Below are positions 8,196 through 28,404 of a stretch of 30,133 bases of DNA, piece by piece. Source of the stretch: a virus; the IMG/VR virus record IMGVR_UViG_3300021961_000419, positions 1-30,133 of that record. The stretch is one strand, 5' to 3'. Both the position numbers and the translations under genes were made by a program. The notes beneath the pieces are model-generated. The model saw only the letters and a list, made by a program, of their open reading frames with translations. It made no database searches and was not told the DNA's origin. Position 1 is the first letter of the stretch. Each line of letters starts with the position of its first letter.

Positions 8196-8411
8196 TTAGA
8201 ATGTTCCACCATCTATGTTTGATACATTTAATGAGCTAGCTGCTTGTGTGACCCATTCTTCCAAATCAGCATCATATATCAAAGTATAACCATCTTCCAG
8301 AGCTGCAGAATTCACGTTTTTCAATTCTTCAAGATTCACCAAAGGCAAAGAAACTTTTTTGACGGTGGTGTTGATTTTGGGTTGAGCCGAGGTTGTGACT
8401 TTCAATGCCAT
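8196..8411 (-). CDS. 71-residue fibre mini-protein ending in IDGGTF
   Basis: The start overlaps the previous stop by one base (TAATG). Sequence: basic/Thr N-terminus (MALKVTTSAQPKINTTVKKV), then VNLEELKNVNSAALEDGYTL, IYDADLEEWVTQAASS and a terminal NVSNIDGGTF. The LxDGYTLxYDxxxxxWV pattern and the VSNIDGGTF end are recurrent in fibre proteins of T4-like marine phages; the 564-residue fibre next door ends NVIDGGTY. It looks like a stand-alone fibre tip or connector module. Function is not known. Confidence 0.65.
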   Translation of the reverse strand: MALKVTTSAQPKINTTVKKVSLPLVNLEELKNVNSAALEDGYTLIYDADLEEWVTQAASSLNVSNIDGGTF

Positions 8412-8752
8412 TAGCGTGTGACCTCAGGTGTAACTGTGATGATACCTTCTAGCACGCGGGTGACAGCACTACCTTCACCCGCAGGTGCTACAATTTCCAC
8501 ATCATACACATAACGTCCTGCTTTCAAAGCTGACGTTTGTGTGTCTGTTAACGCAATCGTCAAATCACCTGTGGTAGGTGTGGGAGATGTCACAGTGAAA
8601 GATGTGTAGCTTGTGGCTCCATAGCTTTTCCGTAACTGCGCTCTGAGGGTGTAACCAGTTAAATTAATCTCATTTCCGTTAGCGTCAGCCACGGTGATTG
8701 TCAACGAAAAAGTTGTTCCTTGGTCAATCACCAAGTTCTTAACTGTAGCCAT
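8411..8752 (-). CDS. Ig-like / BppU-N-like small tail protein
   Basis: The 113-residue product has the order of strands seen in the N-terminal domain of phage baseplate upper proteins (BppU) and similar Ig-like tail proteins: VIDQGTTFSLTITVADANGN, INLTGYTLRAQLRKSYG, TGDLTIALTDTQTSALKAGR, YVYDVEIVAP, and a final VLEGIITVTPEVTR. Small proteins of this type occur beside fibre genes in marine T4-like phages, probably as adaptors. It has its own late-promoter box upstream and a TAATG one-base overlap with the 71-residue gene downstream. The specific attachment partner is not known. Confidence 0.68.
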   Translation of the reverse strand: MATVKNLVIDQGTTFSLTITVADANGNEINLTGYTLRAQLRKSYGATSYTSFTVTSPTPTTGDLTIALTDTQTSALKAGRYVYDVEIVAPAGEGSAVTRVLEGIITVTPEVTR

Positions 8753-8785: not shown

Positions 8786-8793
8786 TATTTATA
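8786..8793 (-). promoter_or_regulatory. T4-type late promoter box TATAAATA
   Basis: A perfect TATAAATA lies in the 53-base gap after the glycosyltransferase-like gene, with its downstream end 33 bases before the ATG of the Ig-like gene at 8752. It would start a transcript covering the remaining fibre genes to the left. Confidence 0.7.
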
Positions 8794-8805: not shown

Positions 8806-9915
8806 TTAGCCGTGAGTTTCTTCAAAATATGTTTGCAACCAGTTCCAATCCACAGTCTTTTTCAGTGCATCTTTATCATCTCGGTGTTGTTCTGCATAGG
8901 CATTTCCTTCTCTGGCTCCCATCAATACCCAATCTGAATGAGGACCTTCTGCAAATGCCAACCAACGATCCAACCACAGATGTGAATCTTCACCATAACT
9001 CACAGTCAATTTCACAGCCTCACGGAAGGCTGTTCTCCATGCCTCATAAGGTGTGGTGGCGAATGTGGCTTCACTGACAGTTCTGGGAACTGTGATGGTC
9101 TTGCTGTATTGTGTGAAATCTAAACCGAAGTTCACAGGTGTGTTCAACACTAGATTGCTGTTGTAACATACCACACCCATATGACCATATTGCAATCTGT
9201 TGCTCATGTTCTTGGCATGGAAGATGATGTGAGCGTCAGCAATGGTTTCCACGGGATAATCAAACACTGTGATATCCGTGATGAAGTTTTTGCCAGTCAC
9301 CACGAAGAATTGTTTGGCATCACCTGCCAGATCCACACAACGTTGGAACATCTTTCTACGACCATCAATGCCATCAATACGAACTGCACGGGGACAAATC
9401 TTCACCAGATGATTCCAATTTTCTTCAGCATTGGTTTCACCGTTGCTAGCAAAGAACACAGGAACTGCATCCTTCTTGGCAGTCCTACGTACCTTCAATG
9501 TGTGTAATGCCACCACAGGATCCACTTCAATAATCATCTTGTCTGGCCATTCCCATGGGTCATCACTCACCTTCTTGGCTTTTTCAATCACCTTGCGTTC
9601 TCCAGCCCATCCTGCGATGAACACTTGTTCTGCGTCCTTACGGACCACAAAGATGACTGGGCCAGAAATGTGTTCCCAGGTGATGCCATTGCTACACCGA
9701 TACAACTTTCGTTCAGACCCCTTGGCATCAATGATGTCCACGTAATCAAATGCTGACAGTTCTTTGTCGCCTGCCTGGGCCCATCCTTTAGCATCTGTCA
9801 CTGTGTCAATGAAGTCCGTGAACCATCCAAGACTCCGGACCCAAGGCTTGGTTTCCAGAATCCAATATTGTTCAAACAAGTCAGTATGTGCCAGCCATGT
9901 TTCATTATTCAGCAT
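8806..9915 (-). CDS. Probable glycosyltransferase-like protein (family uncertain)
   Basis: The 369-residue product overlaps the GT2-like gene upstream by 11 bases, with AGGTGAGG just before the ATG. Residues ~151-260 look like a GT-A-type domain seen in proteins of large marine phages: VPVFFASNGETNAEENWNHL, CPRAVRIDGIDGRRK, FFVVTGKNFITD, and DAHIIFHAKNMSNRLQYGHM. The last 100 residues include TPYEAWRTAFREAVKLT, a block I recall following such domains. The N-terminal ~145 residues are Trp-rich and contain a second strand-rich part (VIFVVRKDAEQVFIAGW). I see no clean DxD, so catalytic activity is uncertain; the VDPVV and NFITD segments are possible alternatives. Coupling to the GT2 gene suggests they modify the same target. 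Confidence 0.5.
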   Translation of the reverse strand: MLNNETWLAHTDLFEQYWILETKPWVRSLGWFTDFIDTVTDAKGWAQAGDKELSAFDYVDIIDAKGSERKLYRCSNGITWEHISGPVIFVVRKDAEQVFIAGWAGERKVIEKAKKVSDDPWEWPDKMIIEVDPVVALHTLKVRRTAKKDAVPVFFASNGETNAEENWNHLVKICPRAVRIDGIDGRRKMFQRCVDLAGDAKQFFVVTGKNFITDITVFDYPVETIADAHIIFHAKNMSNRLQYGHMGVVCYNSNLVLNTPVNFGLDFTQYSKTITVPRTVSEATFATTPYEAWRTAFREAVKLTVSYGEDSHLWLDRWLAFAEGPHSDWVLMGAREGNAYAEQHRDDKDALKKTVDWNWLQTYFEETHG

Positions 9916-10621
9916 TCTTCCTCACCTTTTTCATTTTTGTGATTTTTTTCACTTCATTATCAATACGTTTTTCTTCATTGGTGCCGATGCTAGGACCGAA
10001 CGCCCATTGTCCTACATGACGAACCTGAAAACTTAGGTTCATGTCAATCAGAATCTTATGTCCTGCTTGACGAAGCTTATTTTGAAAATAAAAATCTTCA
10101 CCATGCCAATCATTGTCATAGTATTCAAAATTGAAGAAAGGAGGTTCAATGTTTTTTAAAATTTCTGTTTTCATCATCATACACCCCATACCCACACCTT
10201 CCACTTCTTGCAGTTCCTGGTCACCTTCTAGTGGTAACCAGTTGTCCCAGTTTCCTCGTTCCGGGTACGCCACAGTTTGAAGTGGGACTGAACGTTTCAT
10301 GTAGTTAGCGCACACCACATCTACATTGTGTCCCATCAATCTCATGGCAGTGGTGCTGGGAAACAGCATGTCTGAGTCCAGCCAAAGAGCGTAGTCTGCT
10401 TTAATGTTCATGGCTTGTTTTGCCAGACGTTCACGCTGAGCCAACAGAATGGTGCTTTGGTCATAGATGACATGAACATCAATACCTGCCATGGTAGTGG
10501 TTTTCACCAACTCCACCAATGCAGTTGTGAACAAACTGTACATGGATTCCTTACATGGAATCAGAATGGCTAGTTTAGTGGGGCGTGTTTTCCAAATACT
10601 TAAGTCATAGATGTTCTTCAT
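9905..10621 (-). CDS. Glycosyltransferase, GT2-like (GT-A fold)
   Basis: The 238-residue product is predicted to transfer a sugar from a nucleotide-sugar donor in the cytoplasm. The N-terminal strand LAILIPCKESMYSLF is the GT-A start, and DYALWLDSDMLFPSTTAM carries the metal-binding D82-S-D84 motif. VEGVGMGCMMMKTEIL is the acceptor-side loop typical of GT2-type phage enzymes, and WHGEDFYFQNKLRQAGHKI matches the ED-containing catalytic/acceptor motif. The C-terminus is lysine-rich (KKITKMKKVRKNAE). The start overlaps the previous gene by 4 bases and the end overlaps the next by 11. Donor and acceptor are unknown; phage fibres or virion proteins, or host surface glycans, are inferred from context. 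No membrane segment is visible. Confidence 0.82.
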   Translation of the reverse strand: MKNIYDLSIWKTRPTKLAILIPCKESMYSLFTTALVELVKTTTMAGIDVHVIYDQSTILLAQRERLAKQAMNIKADYALWLDSDMLFPSTTAMRLMGHNVDVVCANYMKRSVPLQTVAYPERGNWDNWLPLEGDQELQEVEGVGMGCMMMKTEILKNIEPPFFNFEYYDNDWHGEDFYFQNKLRQAGHKILIDMNLSFQVRHVGQWAFGPSIGTNEEKRIDNEVKKITKMKKVRKNAE

Positions 10622-11076
10622 ACACCAGCTACCCCTGCTGCCAATGAGGTGGATTGTGTGGTGATGTCACGAATCATTCCCGTGATTTCATATACACGTT
10701 TCACAAATAGTTGATAGTCAGCTAAAGGAAACTGAGTCACAGTATTTAATGTATCAATACTGTACTTATCAAAAATAAGAATTTCCATGGCGGCTTGACG
10801 AGCCCATCGTTCAATCATGGCAAACCGTGTGGTCTGTAAATCATTGTTCAGAAGGTTCAACAAATGTTCTGGGTCATGTTGAGCTAGAACATCTTCCAGA
10901 AAGGCAATACGCTCTGGCCATGTGTTGGCTTCTTTCAGGTACTTCAATTCATACAGAAGTTCCGTGAGTTTCTTTTTGTCATACCCAATGGAAACCCATC
11001 GGACATAACGTTCTTCGTATTCCGATGGGTTATCATTGATGGCATTCAGTAATGTGTCAAAGGTAATGTCTGTCAT
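10618..11076 (-). CDS. Unknown 152-residue protein heading the glycosyltransferase group
   Basis: The product is mostly alpha-helical and charged: ITFDTLLNAINDNPSEYEER, YVRWVSIGYDKKKLTELLYE, then ERWARQAAMEILIFDKYS and LADYQLFVKRVYEITGM. I recognise no family. I choose the ATG at 11076 because GGAG lies 8 bases upstream; a GTG at 11085 in the same frame would overlap that site. Its stop overlaps the ATG of the glycosyltransferase downstream (ATGA, 4 bases), so the two should be co-translated and may act together. There is no signal peptide or membrane segment. It differs sharply from its fibre neighbours in lacking Thr/Ser/Gly repeats, so it is probably not a virion shaft protein. Confidence 0.7.
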   Translation of the reverse strand: MTDITFDTLLNAINDNPSEYEERYVRWVSIGYDKKKLTELLYELKYLKEANTWPERIAFLEDVLAQHDPEHLLNLLNNDLQTTRFAMIERWARQAAMEILIFDKYSIDTLNTVTQFPLADYQLFVKRVYEITGMIRDITTQSTSLAAGVAGV

Positions 11077-11108: not shown

Positions 11109-11116
11109 AATTTATA
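11109..11116 (-). promoter_or_regulatory. Possible late-type promoter box TATAAATT
   Basis: The 64-base gap before the 152-residue unknown gene holds TATAAATT, a 7/8 match to the late box, 32 bases before the ATG at 11076. The same gap also holds TTGACA (11132-11137) 15 bases upstream of the TATAAA, a sigma70-like arrangement with short spacing. Either could start transcription of the glycosyltransferase group; neither is certain. Confidence 0.35.
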
Positions 11117-11140
11117 TATGTGCTACAATTTTGTCAAGTC

Positions 11141-11340: not shown

Positions 11341-13371
11341 TTATTTAGTGCAGTTGCAATTCTTCTTCACTTCATCTAATTCCAACTTTAAGGCCTTGAT
11401 GGCTTCTACTAATACTGGAATTAACTTCTCATACTTCACGGTCAAGTATTGTTCATCAATAGGTGCAGGTGCTACAGCTTCAGGAAGAACAATTTGCACT
11501 TCTTGAGCGCTAACACCCACTTGCATTTTGTCATTGTTGTAACCTAGTGACTTGGCCACTTCATTTTCTGTGAAGTAGTATCCATTCAATGAAGTTACTT
11601 TTTCTAGTGCATTTGGGATGGTGCCATGGAAGTTCTTCAAACGAGCGTCAGAATAGAACGCTGTGATTTCATTGGTGGCACGAATTTCACCTGCTGTACC
11701 TGAGCCTGCTGTACCCACACCCAATGAATTGAATTGAACATTGGAGCTGGTTGCTACAGCTTGTCCGATGCTAATGGTGACTGCACCTGTGGCACCAGAC
11801 ACAGTGACACCCGTGCCTGCCACATTGCTGGTAACACCTGAGTTGGTGATGGTGACGGCGCCTGTGCCACCTGACACACTGATGCCTGATCCTGCTACAG
11901 CAGAGGTTACACCTGCGTTAGTCAATGTCACAGAACCACCAAGTGATACTGAACCACCACCTGACATACCAGTTCCTGCTGTGACTGTTACTGCACTGTT
12001 CACCAAGCCAGCATTTGGAAGGCCTGTGCAATTGGTCAATGTACCTGATGAAGGAGTACCTAGAGCAGGAGTGGTGAGTGTTGGGCTTGATGCCAACACA
12101 ACAGAACCTGAACCTGTGGTACCGTTGCTCAAGTTGGAAGCAGCAATTTGTGAACCGTTGATGAGATAGTTCTTGCCTGTTGGGATGTTGATGTGTTCTG
12201 AGCTGAGCCAAGAATTAGTACCGTTGTTATAGGCCCAGGTCTTGTTACCTGCAGTTGTGGCTTCCACAGTTAGACCTGCGCCATCAGCACCTGCGTTTGT
12301 GGCATTACCCTTGGCTACTGTCAAGTTCAAATCATCAATGTCTACAGTGGTGCTGTTCACTGTTGTGGTGGTACCATTCACAGTCAAATCACCTGAGATG
12401 GTGACTGCATTACCGCTCAATGAGATGGCAACTGCACCTGTTGAGGACTTGATGTCATTACCTGTTACTGTCAAATCACCCTTCACTTCCACATCAGAAG
12501 CGTTCAATGTTAGAGCTGTGGCGCCAGTTGAGGACTTAATGTCATTGCCATTCACAGTAACATCACCTGCTAATGTAACATCAGCACCTGCCATGGTGAT
12601 GGCAGTGGTGGCGCTTGAACTGGAAGCAATAACTAGTTGACCACCTGATTGAATCAACCGACCAAATTCTGTACCACCATCCTTCAGGATGATGTCTGAA
12701 CCATCAGCATCAAGAATGATGTCAGCAGCTGCATCAAGAGTGAAATCTGCTGATGCATTCACTTGTGCAATGGTGGGTGTGGTGATGGTTGGACTGCCAT
12801 TGAACACCAACAAACCAGTACCAGTTTCATCTGATACTGCTGCCAACATTTGAGCTGATGTGGCAGTCAAAGTGTTGTTGGCAAGATTGATGGTCTTGTT
12901 GGTCAATGTTTGTGTGACATCAGTACCCACCATGGTGGTGGTGGCATCTGGGATGGTCACTGTTCGGTCAGCTGTGGGATCCACTACTGTTAGAAGTGTT
13001 TCAAAGGCATCTGCTGTGGCACCTTCAAAATACAAACCATTGGTAACAATGGCGGCATCTAGTGTTTTGTTGGTGAGTGTTTGTGCACCATCAAGTGTTG
13101 TAAGTGTTCTTGTGGCTGAGCCTGTGTAGTATTTGATATCACCGGCATTGTTCCAAACGTCACCTGATACAGGTGATGAAGGATCAGCACTACCAGCTAC
13201 AACACGAATACTAGCGGTAGAAGAACTACTTGTGACAGTAGTAAACTTACCTGTCATGGTAGTAGAACCGTCTTTTTCTACCTTGTCGGTGTTCAAATTA
13301 CTGAAGTTGTTGTCTACTTCAGTATTTGTGAGTGGAGTACCTTTTACGTTTCTTAAGGTTAGTGTGGACAT
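11341..13371 (-). CDS. Tail fibre protein with C-terminal peptidase-S74 intramolecular chaperone
   Basis: This is a 676-residue host-recognition fibre. The N-terminus (NVKGTPLTNTEVDNNFSNLN; KVEKDGSTTMTGKF) is the LTNxEVDxNF / TMTGK attachment-type start common in phage fibres. The shaft has [24 protein letters not shown] and repeated GDLTVTGNDIKSS units, then SGGTGAVTITNSGV repeats. The last ~104 residues are an S74 domain: YSDARLKNF carries the conserved Ser574-Asp dyad and SDxRLK motif, followed by LNGYYFTENE, VGVSAQEVQ, LPEAV and YEKLIPVLVEAIKALKLELD. In this family the chaperone drives trimerisation and then cuts itself off before the Ser. The product ends with a Cys-containing NCNCTK. 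AGAGGA lies just upstream of the ATG; an internal late promoter precedes it. Confidence 0.9.
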   Translation of the reverse strand: MSTLTLRNVKGTPLTNTEVDNNFSNLNTDKVEKDGSTTMTGKFTTVTSSSSTASIRVVAGSADPSSPVSGDVWNNAGDIKYYTGSATRTLTTLDGAQTLTNKTLDAAIVTNGLYFEGATADAFETLLTVVDPTADRTVTIPDATTTMVGTDVTQTLTNKTINLANNTLTATSAQMLAAVSDETGTGLLVFNGSPTITTPTIAQVNASADFTLDAAADIILDADGSDIILKDGGTEFGRLIQSGGQLVIASSSSATTAITMAGADVTLAGDVTVNGNDIKSSTGATALTLNASDVEVKGDLTVTGNDIKSSTGAVAISLSGNAVTISGDLTVNGTTTTVNSTTVDIDDLNLTVAKGNATNAGADGAGLTVEATTAGNKTWAYNNGTNSWLSSEHINIPTGKNYLINGSQIAASNLSNGTTGSGSVVLASSPTLTTPALGTPSSGTLTNCTGLPNAGLVNSAVTVTAGTGMSGGGSVSLGGSVTLTNAGVTSAVAGSGISVSGGTGAVTITNSGVTSNVAGTGVTVSGATGAVTISIGQAVATSSNVQFNSLGVGTAGSGTAGEIRATNEITAFYSDARLKNFHGTIPNALEKVTSLNGYYFTENEVAKSLGYNNDKMQVGVSAQEVQIVLPEAVAPAPIDEQYLTVKYEKLIPVLVEAIKALKLELDEVKKNCNCTK
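12032..12060 (-). repeat. 29-base identity shared with another fibre gene (3640-3668)
   Basis: Partner copy of the identity listed at 3640-3668, here in the S74 fibre shaft. It lies just after a segment encoding [12 protein letters not shown]. Confidence 0.9.
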
Positions 13372-13373
13372 CG

Positions 13374-13571
13374 TTATCCTCTATTGGCAATTAATAGTTG
13401 GAGCATATTTTTAATATCTGTTAATTCTTGTTTTACACTATTTATATCAGTTTCAAGTTCTTTCATTTTGTCTTTACTGAAACGTCTGGCTTTATATGCT
13501 GCCAACCCCTCTAAATCAGTATTCACAACCGCAGAACTGTTACTGTCTCGACGAATTTTTAGTTCATCCAT
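13374..13571 (-). CDS. Small coiled-coil protein
   Basis: This 65-residue product lies between the 739-residue structural gene (stop 5 bases upstream) and the S74 fibre (start 3 bases downstream). A basic N-terminus (MDELKIRRDSNSS) leads into YKARRFSKDKMKELETDINS, then VKQELTDIKNMLQLLIANRG; the second half has heptad-like spacing of Leu/Ile/Met and should form a coiled coil. It could be an assembly factor or a trimeric connector for a fibre, but nothing identifies a function. Tight packing and in-frame codon quality support it as real. A late-promoter box for the downstream fibre lies inside it. Confidence 0.7.
   Translation of the reverse strand: MDELKIRRDSNSSAVVNTDLEGLAAYKARRFSKDKMKELETDINSVKQELTDIKNMLQLLIANRG
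13439..13446 (-). promoter_or_regulatory. T4-type late promoter box TATAAATA inside the 65-residue gene
   Basis: A perfect TATAAATA lies within the coding region of the small coiled-coil gene, with its downstream end 67 bases ahead of the S74 fibre ATG (13371). Position and spacing suit an internal late promoter allowing extra fibre transcription. The fibre has a good Shine-Dalgarno (AGAGGA). Confidence 0.6.
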
Positions 13572-23196: not shown

Positions 23197-23204
23197 TATT
23201 TATA
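23197..23204 (-). promoter_or_regulatory. T4-type late promoter box TATAAATA
   Basis: A perfect TATAAATA lies in the 60-base gap between the 963-residue gene and the 152-residue gene, with its downstream end 46 bases before the ATG at 23150. The predicted transcript start leaves a normal leader with the SD-like AGAGGA. A 12-base palindrome, AATACTAGTATT (23189-23200), overlaps the box and the likely start point. Confidence 0.7.
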
Positions 23205-28396: not shown

Positions 28397-28404
28397 TATT
28401 TATA
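28397..28404 (-). promoter_or_regulatory. T4-type late promoter box TATAAATA upstream of gp25
   Basis: A perfect TATAAATA on the minus strand lies between the gp5 stop and the gp25 ATG. T4 late promoters (recognised by gp55 with the sliding clamp) use TATAAATA, and T4-like cyanophages use NATAAATA. Only 10 bases separate the box from the ATG, so a start about 6 bases downstream would leave almost no leader. No Shine-Dalgarno sequence is visible in that gap. Confidence 0.6.

Follow-up and report, generated by a model that had tools for sequence, protein, structure and literature searches.

Gene content and linkage of the locus

The window, by which we mean the whole stretch of DNA analysed here, is a 30,133-base virus record that encodes baseplate and tail genes of a T4-like phage, nearly all on the minus strand. 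Recognised gene families include gp25, an S74 fibre protein and an L-shaped-fibre assembly protein. Within this cluster are the three overlapping genes that an earlier note had described: ORF152 (10618..11076, minus strand; 152 aa, or 155 aa if an upstream GTG is used), ORF238 (9905..10621, minus strand; 238 aa) and ORF369 (8806..9915, minus strand; 369 aa, comprising an N-terminal part from residue 1 to ~150 and a GT-A-like domain at ~150-367). Their placement and overlaps, 4 bases (ATGA) between ORF152 and ORF238 and 11 bases between ORF238 and ORF369, are as that note gave them, and they do lack the Thr/Ser/Gly bias of their neighbours (T+S+G of 15-17% versus 22-46% in the flanking fibre-cluster genes). 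The three-gene description nevertheless overlooked a fourth gene, P58 (11141..11317, minus strand), a promoter at 11109-11137 and a T-x-K motif in ORF369, each discussed below. P58 encodes 58 aa, a candidate acceptor or fibre-tip protein, and is located between ORF152 and a fibre gene directly upstream of the module (11341..13371, minus strand) that features a C-terminal Peptidase_S74 (endosialidase-type chaperone) domain (PF13884, 8.9e-09, above cut-off). The C-terminal part of this S74 fibre is common to most relatives, again upstream of the module. Downstream of ORF369, a 113-aa gene (8411..8752, minus strand) is related to L-shaped tail fibre assembly proteins by its PHROG matches (phrog_1084, 9.3e-31; phrog_3304, 4e-26). 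Further upstream, a 65-aa ORF at 13374-13571 (minus strand), matched via L002:5051-5248, separates a 739-aa gene from the S74 fibre gene, and ORFs of similar length occupy the same place in several relatives.

All 44 IMG/VR contigs with orthologues retain the order ORF152-ORF238-ORF369 beside fibre genes. The co-occurrence that the earlier note had proposed to look for is therefore present; neither a distribution independent of fibre clusters nor the lack of a GT-A fold, two of the outcomes it had set against its own reading, came true. Measured against relatives, dN/dS ranges from 0.04 to 0.07 in ORF369 and ORF238 and from 0.04 to 0.14 in ORF152. Because of the conserved order and these low ratios, we consider all three to be genuine genes and rule out chance ORFs.

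A small ORF of 58-92 codons precedes ORF152 in the loci inspected. P58 matched no usable family in PHROG and Pfam scans, yet its ends are conserved, with MG.IP.TGS at the N-terminus, FGGRTTP..Y at the C-terminus and an invariant T54 (20 sequences). A scan for P58 recovered 56 loci, and homologues of ORF152 and ORF238 are directly downstream in 55 of them. ORF369 is also present in 40 of those 55, while the other 15 harbor only the P58-ORF152-ORF238 trio; L022, reached via ORF238, brings the loci of this kind to 16. ORF369 is thus not required for the core, and the existence of such trios indicates that P58, ORF152 and ORF238 form the older core to which ORF369 was added. In L022 and L303, the ORF152 start comes immediately after the P58 stop, which suggests that P58 is co-expressed with the enzymes there. 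By gene linkage, then, the tightest association of the cassette is with P58 rather than with the Thr/Ser-rich fibres. A single P58 homologue, L288:3992-4180 in a far-T4 phage, follows a fibre gene and is accompanied by none of the three enzyme genes. It keeps the T-T-P end, so this end is not specific to glycosylation. Another trio locus without ORF369, L298:5454-8241, encodes three more genes after ORF238, two of which appear glycosyltransferase-like by eye.

A likely catalytic glycosyltransferase and a GT-A-like protein without the metal site

ORF238 is GT-A-like and belongs to phrog_1574 (6.5e-17, residues 11-208 on profile positions 9-234 of 240), a family that carries no functional assignment. 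The same family includes protein SSM2_091 of cyanophage S-SM2 (2e-118 to phrog_1574), a homologue that our profile of the ORF238 alignment A2 matches at 4.5e-10; a search of S-SM2 recovered this ORF238 relative and no relative of ORF369 or ORF152. The GT-A fold of ORF238 is predicted by homology, through a profile match of residues 50-184 to the GT-A protein A197 of STIV (PDB 2c0n; E 1e-5), which differs in that it is a single gene of an archaeal virus with a distant sequence. Pfam scores stayed below their cut-offs, for both Anp1 (PF03452, 25.4 of 28.8 bits) and Glycos_transf_2 (PF00535, 13.5 of 23.3 bits). The active site of GT-A enzymes is marked by a DxD and an xED motif, the latter supplying the base in most enzymes of the inverting type (PMC7185993). 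Both have counterparts in ORF238, D82-S83-D84 (codons at 10370..10378, minus strand) and G174-E175-D176 (codons at 10094..10102, minus strand), that are invariant in alignment A2; the DSD is invariant in 17 homologues and also occurs in the distant relatives inspected. ORF238 is therefore likely a GT-A-like glycosyltransferase and the putative catalytic subunit, in line with the original description of a glycosyltransferase-like protein with a DSD motif. Two loci of record G015, L069 and L090, have an in-frame loss of residues ~88-144 that keeps the D-S-D and could reflect either faulty assembly or genuine variation. Elsewhere, an ORF238-like domain forms one of the glycosyltransferase-like parts of multi-domain proteins of 874-1125 aa (L017:11553-14927, L097:13349-15970 and L116:3504-6179, all minus strand), encoded in the opposite orientation to the fibre genes. 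A methyltransferase-like part is found at the C-terminal end of the L017 protein and as a separate gene in L116.

ORF152 and P58 each represent an unnamed family. The ORF152 model (pLDDT 71) is all-helical, with eight helices, and a structure search with it returned nothing significant; tblastn against phage isolates likewise found nothing, and PHROG and Pfam provided no usable family. A distant homologue is encoded in L022 (1.2e-12). The role in acceptor recognition or regulation suggested in the earlier note is possible for this putative adaptor.

ORF369 had been described as a second glycosyltransferase-like protein. Fold comparison and homology uphold a GT-A-like domain, but the metal-binding motif of its relatives is gone, and it can therefore not be called an ordinary glycosyltransferase. 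Although AlphaFold yielded a low-confidence model (pLDDT 63), the best named Foldseek matches in both libraries are GT-A enzymes, with A197 among the matches (E 0.011). Sequence searches were less informative: tblastn against phage isolates found nothing, PHROG and Pfam scans gave no usable family, and a search with a divergent ORF369 at E 10 returned noise only. Comparison by hhalign shows no relation to ORF238, so the two are not close paralogues.

To sample relatives, we scanned DNA for a C-terminal signature and then applied the ORF369 profile; the metal site is outside the signature. Since the signature derives from a marine-phage family, the sample is large but neither complete nor unbiased. 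Among the matches listed, a large unnamed phage GT-A family aligns to ORF369 residues ~150-367, most members falling between 1e-22 and 1e-34; a second group next to it scores weaker. At least 104 aligned relatives feature D-x-D at the metal site. In at least 17 more it is shifted by one alignment column, so that the TVDAD group carries a displaced D-x-D and not a T-x-D. These proteins differ from ORF369 in keeping the D-x-D, in lacking its N-terminal part and in often occurring in tandem. The family, of the WVVDGDA type (at least loci L128-L207), is widespread, frequently as adjacent pairs of paralogues, one of TVDAD type and one of DGDA type, and the members scanned had no PHROG match and no above-cut-off Pfam match.

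Every ORF369 encodes T-G-K or T-A-K at the D-x-D site; in the window, sequence and alignment place it at T207-G208-K209 (codons at 9289..9297, minus strand). Three further positions that are 95-100% conserved in the D-x-D group among the matches listed, H190, G246 and K249, are replaced in ORF369 by residues that are themselves invariant, while S157, E160, R179 and G185 of that family are retained. An invariant T-x-K together with dN/dS of 0.04-0.06 rules out a decaying pseudogene and indicates that ORF369 is kept for a function. In a preliminary, midpoint-rooted tree, ORF369 forms a single clade on one long branch, and the point of motif loss is not placed.

From its sequence, ORF369 would be either a pseudo-glycosyltransferase, that is a non-catalytic partner, or a metal-independent enzyme. 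Loss of the DXD does not prove inactivity: the GT6a enzyme of Bacteroides ovatus has both aspartates replaced (N-x-N), whereas related enzymes keep them, and this bacterial GT6 enzyme works without metal (PMC3961637). Similarly, GT14 has no DXD motif and works metal-free (PMC7185993). ORF369 could accordingly be an active, metal-independent GT-A enzyme of the same virion-directed module, in which the T-x-K lysine or other basic residues stand in for the metal, and two sugars are added to the acceptor one after the other by ORF238 and ORF369. The fixed T-x-K, the strong conservation of ORF369 and the four retained family residues would all suit an enzyme of this kind, yet the replacements at H190, G246 and K249 extend the change beyond the metal site, and the GT6a comparison is inexact in that its motif is N-x-N rather than T-x-K and its activity has been demonstrated. 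We know of no characterised GT-A enzyme with T-x-K, which also counts against this reading, and we regard it as doubtful.

Promoter patterns and horizontal transfer

A sigma70-type promoter, TTGACA-N17-TAAATT (11109..11137, minus strand), directly follows the P58 stop and precedes ORF152. It is the only such site in the window (1 match to TTGACA-N15-18-TAWAWT versus 0.11 expected); 9 of 100 shuffled sequences had one, which makes the single count weak by itself, and a looser promoter scan of the window found no excess of promoter-like sites. The strength of the site comes from its conservation: in the slightly relaxed form TTGACN...TANAWT, it precedes ORF152 by 47-63 bp in 25 of the 26 loci chosen as representatives, which otherwise contain few such sites. 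The neighbouring structural genes feature TATAAATA, the T4 late promoter consensus (PMC1524935), with 4 sites in the window versus 0.53 expected, all of them between genes and on the coding strand. The first (8786..8793, minus strand) separates ORF369 from the downstream fibre-assembly gene and the others are at 13439-13446, 23197-23204 and 28397-28404 (minus strand). Of the 26 representatives, 18 carry the motif 13-26 bases past the ORF369 stop, and eight, the far-T4 loci included, lack it at this position. A 124-kb relative has sigma70-type sites in front of DNA polymerase, ligase, endonuclease and genes of that kind, and the site of the cassette is the only one in the ~33-87 kb region that contains the module, portal and capsid genes. 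Taken together, these patterns suggest that the cassette is probably an early unit embedded among late genes and, given its own early-type promoter, not just one segment of the fibres' late transcript.

Module-bearing contigs were split into a near-T4 and a far-T4 group by their scores to the T4 portal and capsid families. Between the groups, capsid proteins are 30-34% and portal proteins 28-30% identical (partial alignments). In G005, G007 and G014, the far-T4 contigs that have a marker, the module is far closer to that of the window, with 81-84% identity for ORF238, 76-82% for ORF152, 68-71% for ORF369 and 78-91% for P58. Judged by this disparity, the module has moved horizontally between distant T4-like phages. 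Both groups also have the S74 fibre end in front of P58 in common (~46-65% identity), and it apparently often travelled with the module.

A mobile unit with its own promoter resembles a moron, and a promoter of early type would fit a role directed at the host as well. The enzymes could modify a host molecule, such as a surface glycan or receptor, to exclude superinfection or aid infection, with their position among fibre genes reflecting frequent recombination there; serotype conversion by phage-borne glucosyltransferases is known (PMC3851460). The promoter is recognised from its conserved sequence, and the resemblance is incomplete in that nothing terminator-like occurs between ORF369 and the next gene, and G+C (0.41-0.46 versus 0.44 for the window) is not atypical; the cassette is therefore only moron-like. 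Moreover, the constant link to P58, and usually to the S74 fibre end, does not favor a host target, nor does inspection of the cassette, in which we recognised neither a membrane flippase nor a membrane-anchored transferase like those of serotype conversion. The genomic context of ORF238 relatives in other phages argues against it as well. In four small phages (MW202711, MW202496, MW202462 and PP438425), the relative, unannotated in MW202462, is encoded 0-1 genes after the major capsid gene, and in archaeal virus vir323 it is two genes before a tail protein. This capsid and tail neighbourhood supports, without proof, virion proteins as the putative targets, and we consider a host-directed role unlikely. 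The loci with capsid-adjoining ORF238 relatives in small phages, L317, L318, L319 and L320, include one from Microcystis phage Mel-JY34, an isolate whose host is known.

Glucosylation of phage DNA, as by the T4 alpha- and beta-glucosyltransferases, is highly improbable and was dropped as a main reading, since the early-type promoter and a weak match of ORF238 in PHROG, to the family of HMC-alpha-glucosyltransferase (E 0.073), are set against much stronger matches to phrog_1574 and A197 and the linkage to P58, fibres and capsid genes.

A putative virion-glycosylation module

We tentatively propose, at a probability of about 0.4, that P58, ORF152, ORF238 and ORF369 constitute a horizontally moving virion-glycosylation module in which ORF369 is a non-catalytic partner and the acceptor is P58 or the tip of the S74 fibre. 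The cassette would probably decorate the phage's own fibre tip and work like a two- or three-component protein glycosyltransferase aimed at a neighbouring structural protein. As the catalytic subunit of a putative complex, ORF238 would bind a nucleotide sugar via D-S-D and transfer the sugar with the base of G-E-D. ORF369, a presumed former glycosyltransferase that lost its D-x-D, may now serve as a chaperone or acceptor-recognition partner of ORF238, and its unique N-terminal part may help target selection. ORF152 would be a helical adaptor of the older core. Expressed from their own early sigma70-type promoter, the enzymes would already be there when the late fibre proteins appear, and could then modify the neighbouring P58 or S74 fibre tip.

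A precedent for the partner role is COSMC, a GT31 member that lost both DxD and xED and is the chaperone of a catalytic glycosyltransferase, T-synthase (PMC7185993). COSMC is eukaryotic and serves as a works-like analogue of ORF369 only, whose own partner role is putative. The more specific proposal of a transferable machine, in which a pseudo-glycosyltransferase lacking DXD and a helical adaptor guide a single catalytic GT-A enzyme to a dedicated 58-residue fibre-tip protein as a phage counterpart of the COSMC/T-synthase principle, is quite doubtful.

Phage virion glycosylation itself is already known. In mycobacteriophages Che8, Corndog and Myrna, phage-encoded glycosyltransferases modify capsid and tail-tube proteins; these are other phages with other targets, and the account we consulted describes neither a DXD-less partner nor a P58-like gene (PMC12363180). 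What the present locus adds is a linked module of four genes, a metal site whose replacement is fixed, a promoter of early type and transfer between distant groups of T4-like phages.

Overall, the module joins a likely catalytic enzyme, a motif-less relative, a putative adaptor and a small structural-type protein, and has moved almost unchanged between very distant T4-like phages. To our knowledge, few systems with glycosylated phage particles have been described, and little is understood of how the enzymes find their targets. For freshwater phages, the module would provide a small system in which fibre or tip glycosylation can be tested directly, and ORF369 would be a case of a viral glycosyltransferase shedding its metal site under continued strong selection.
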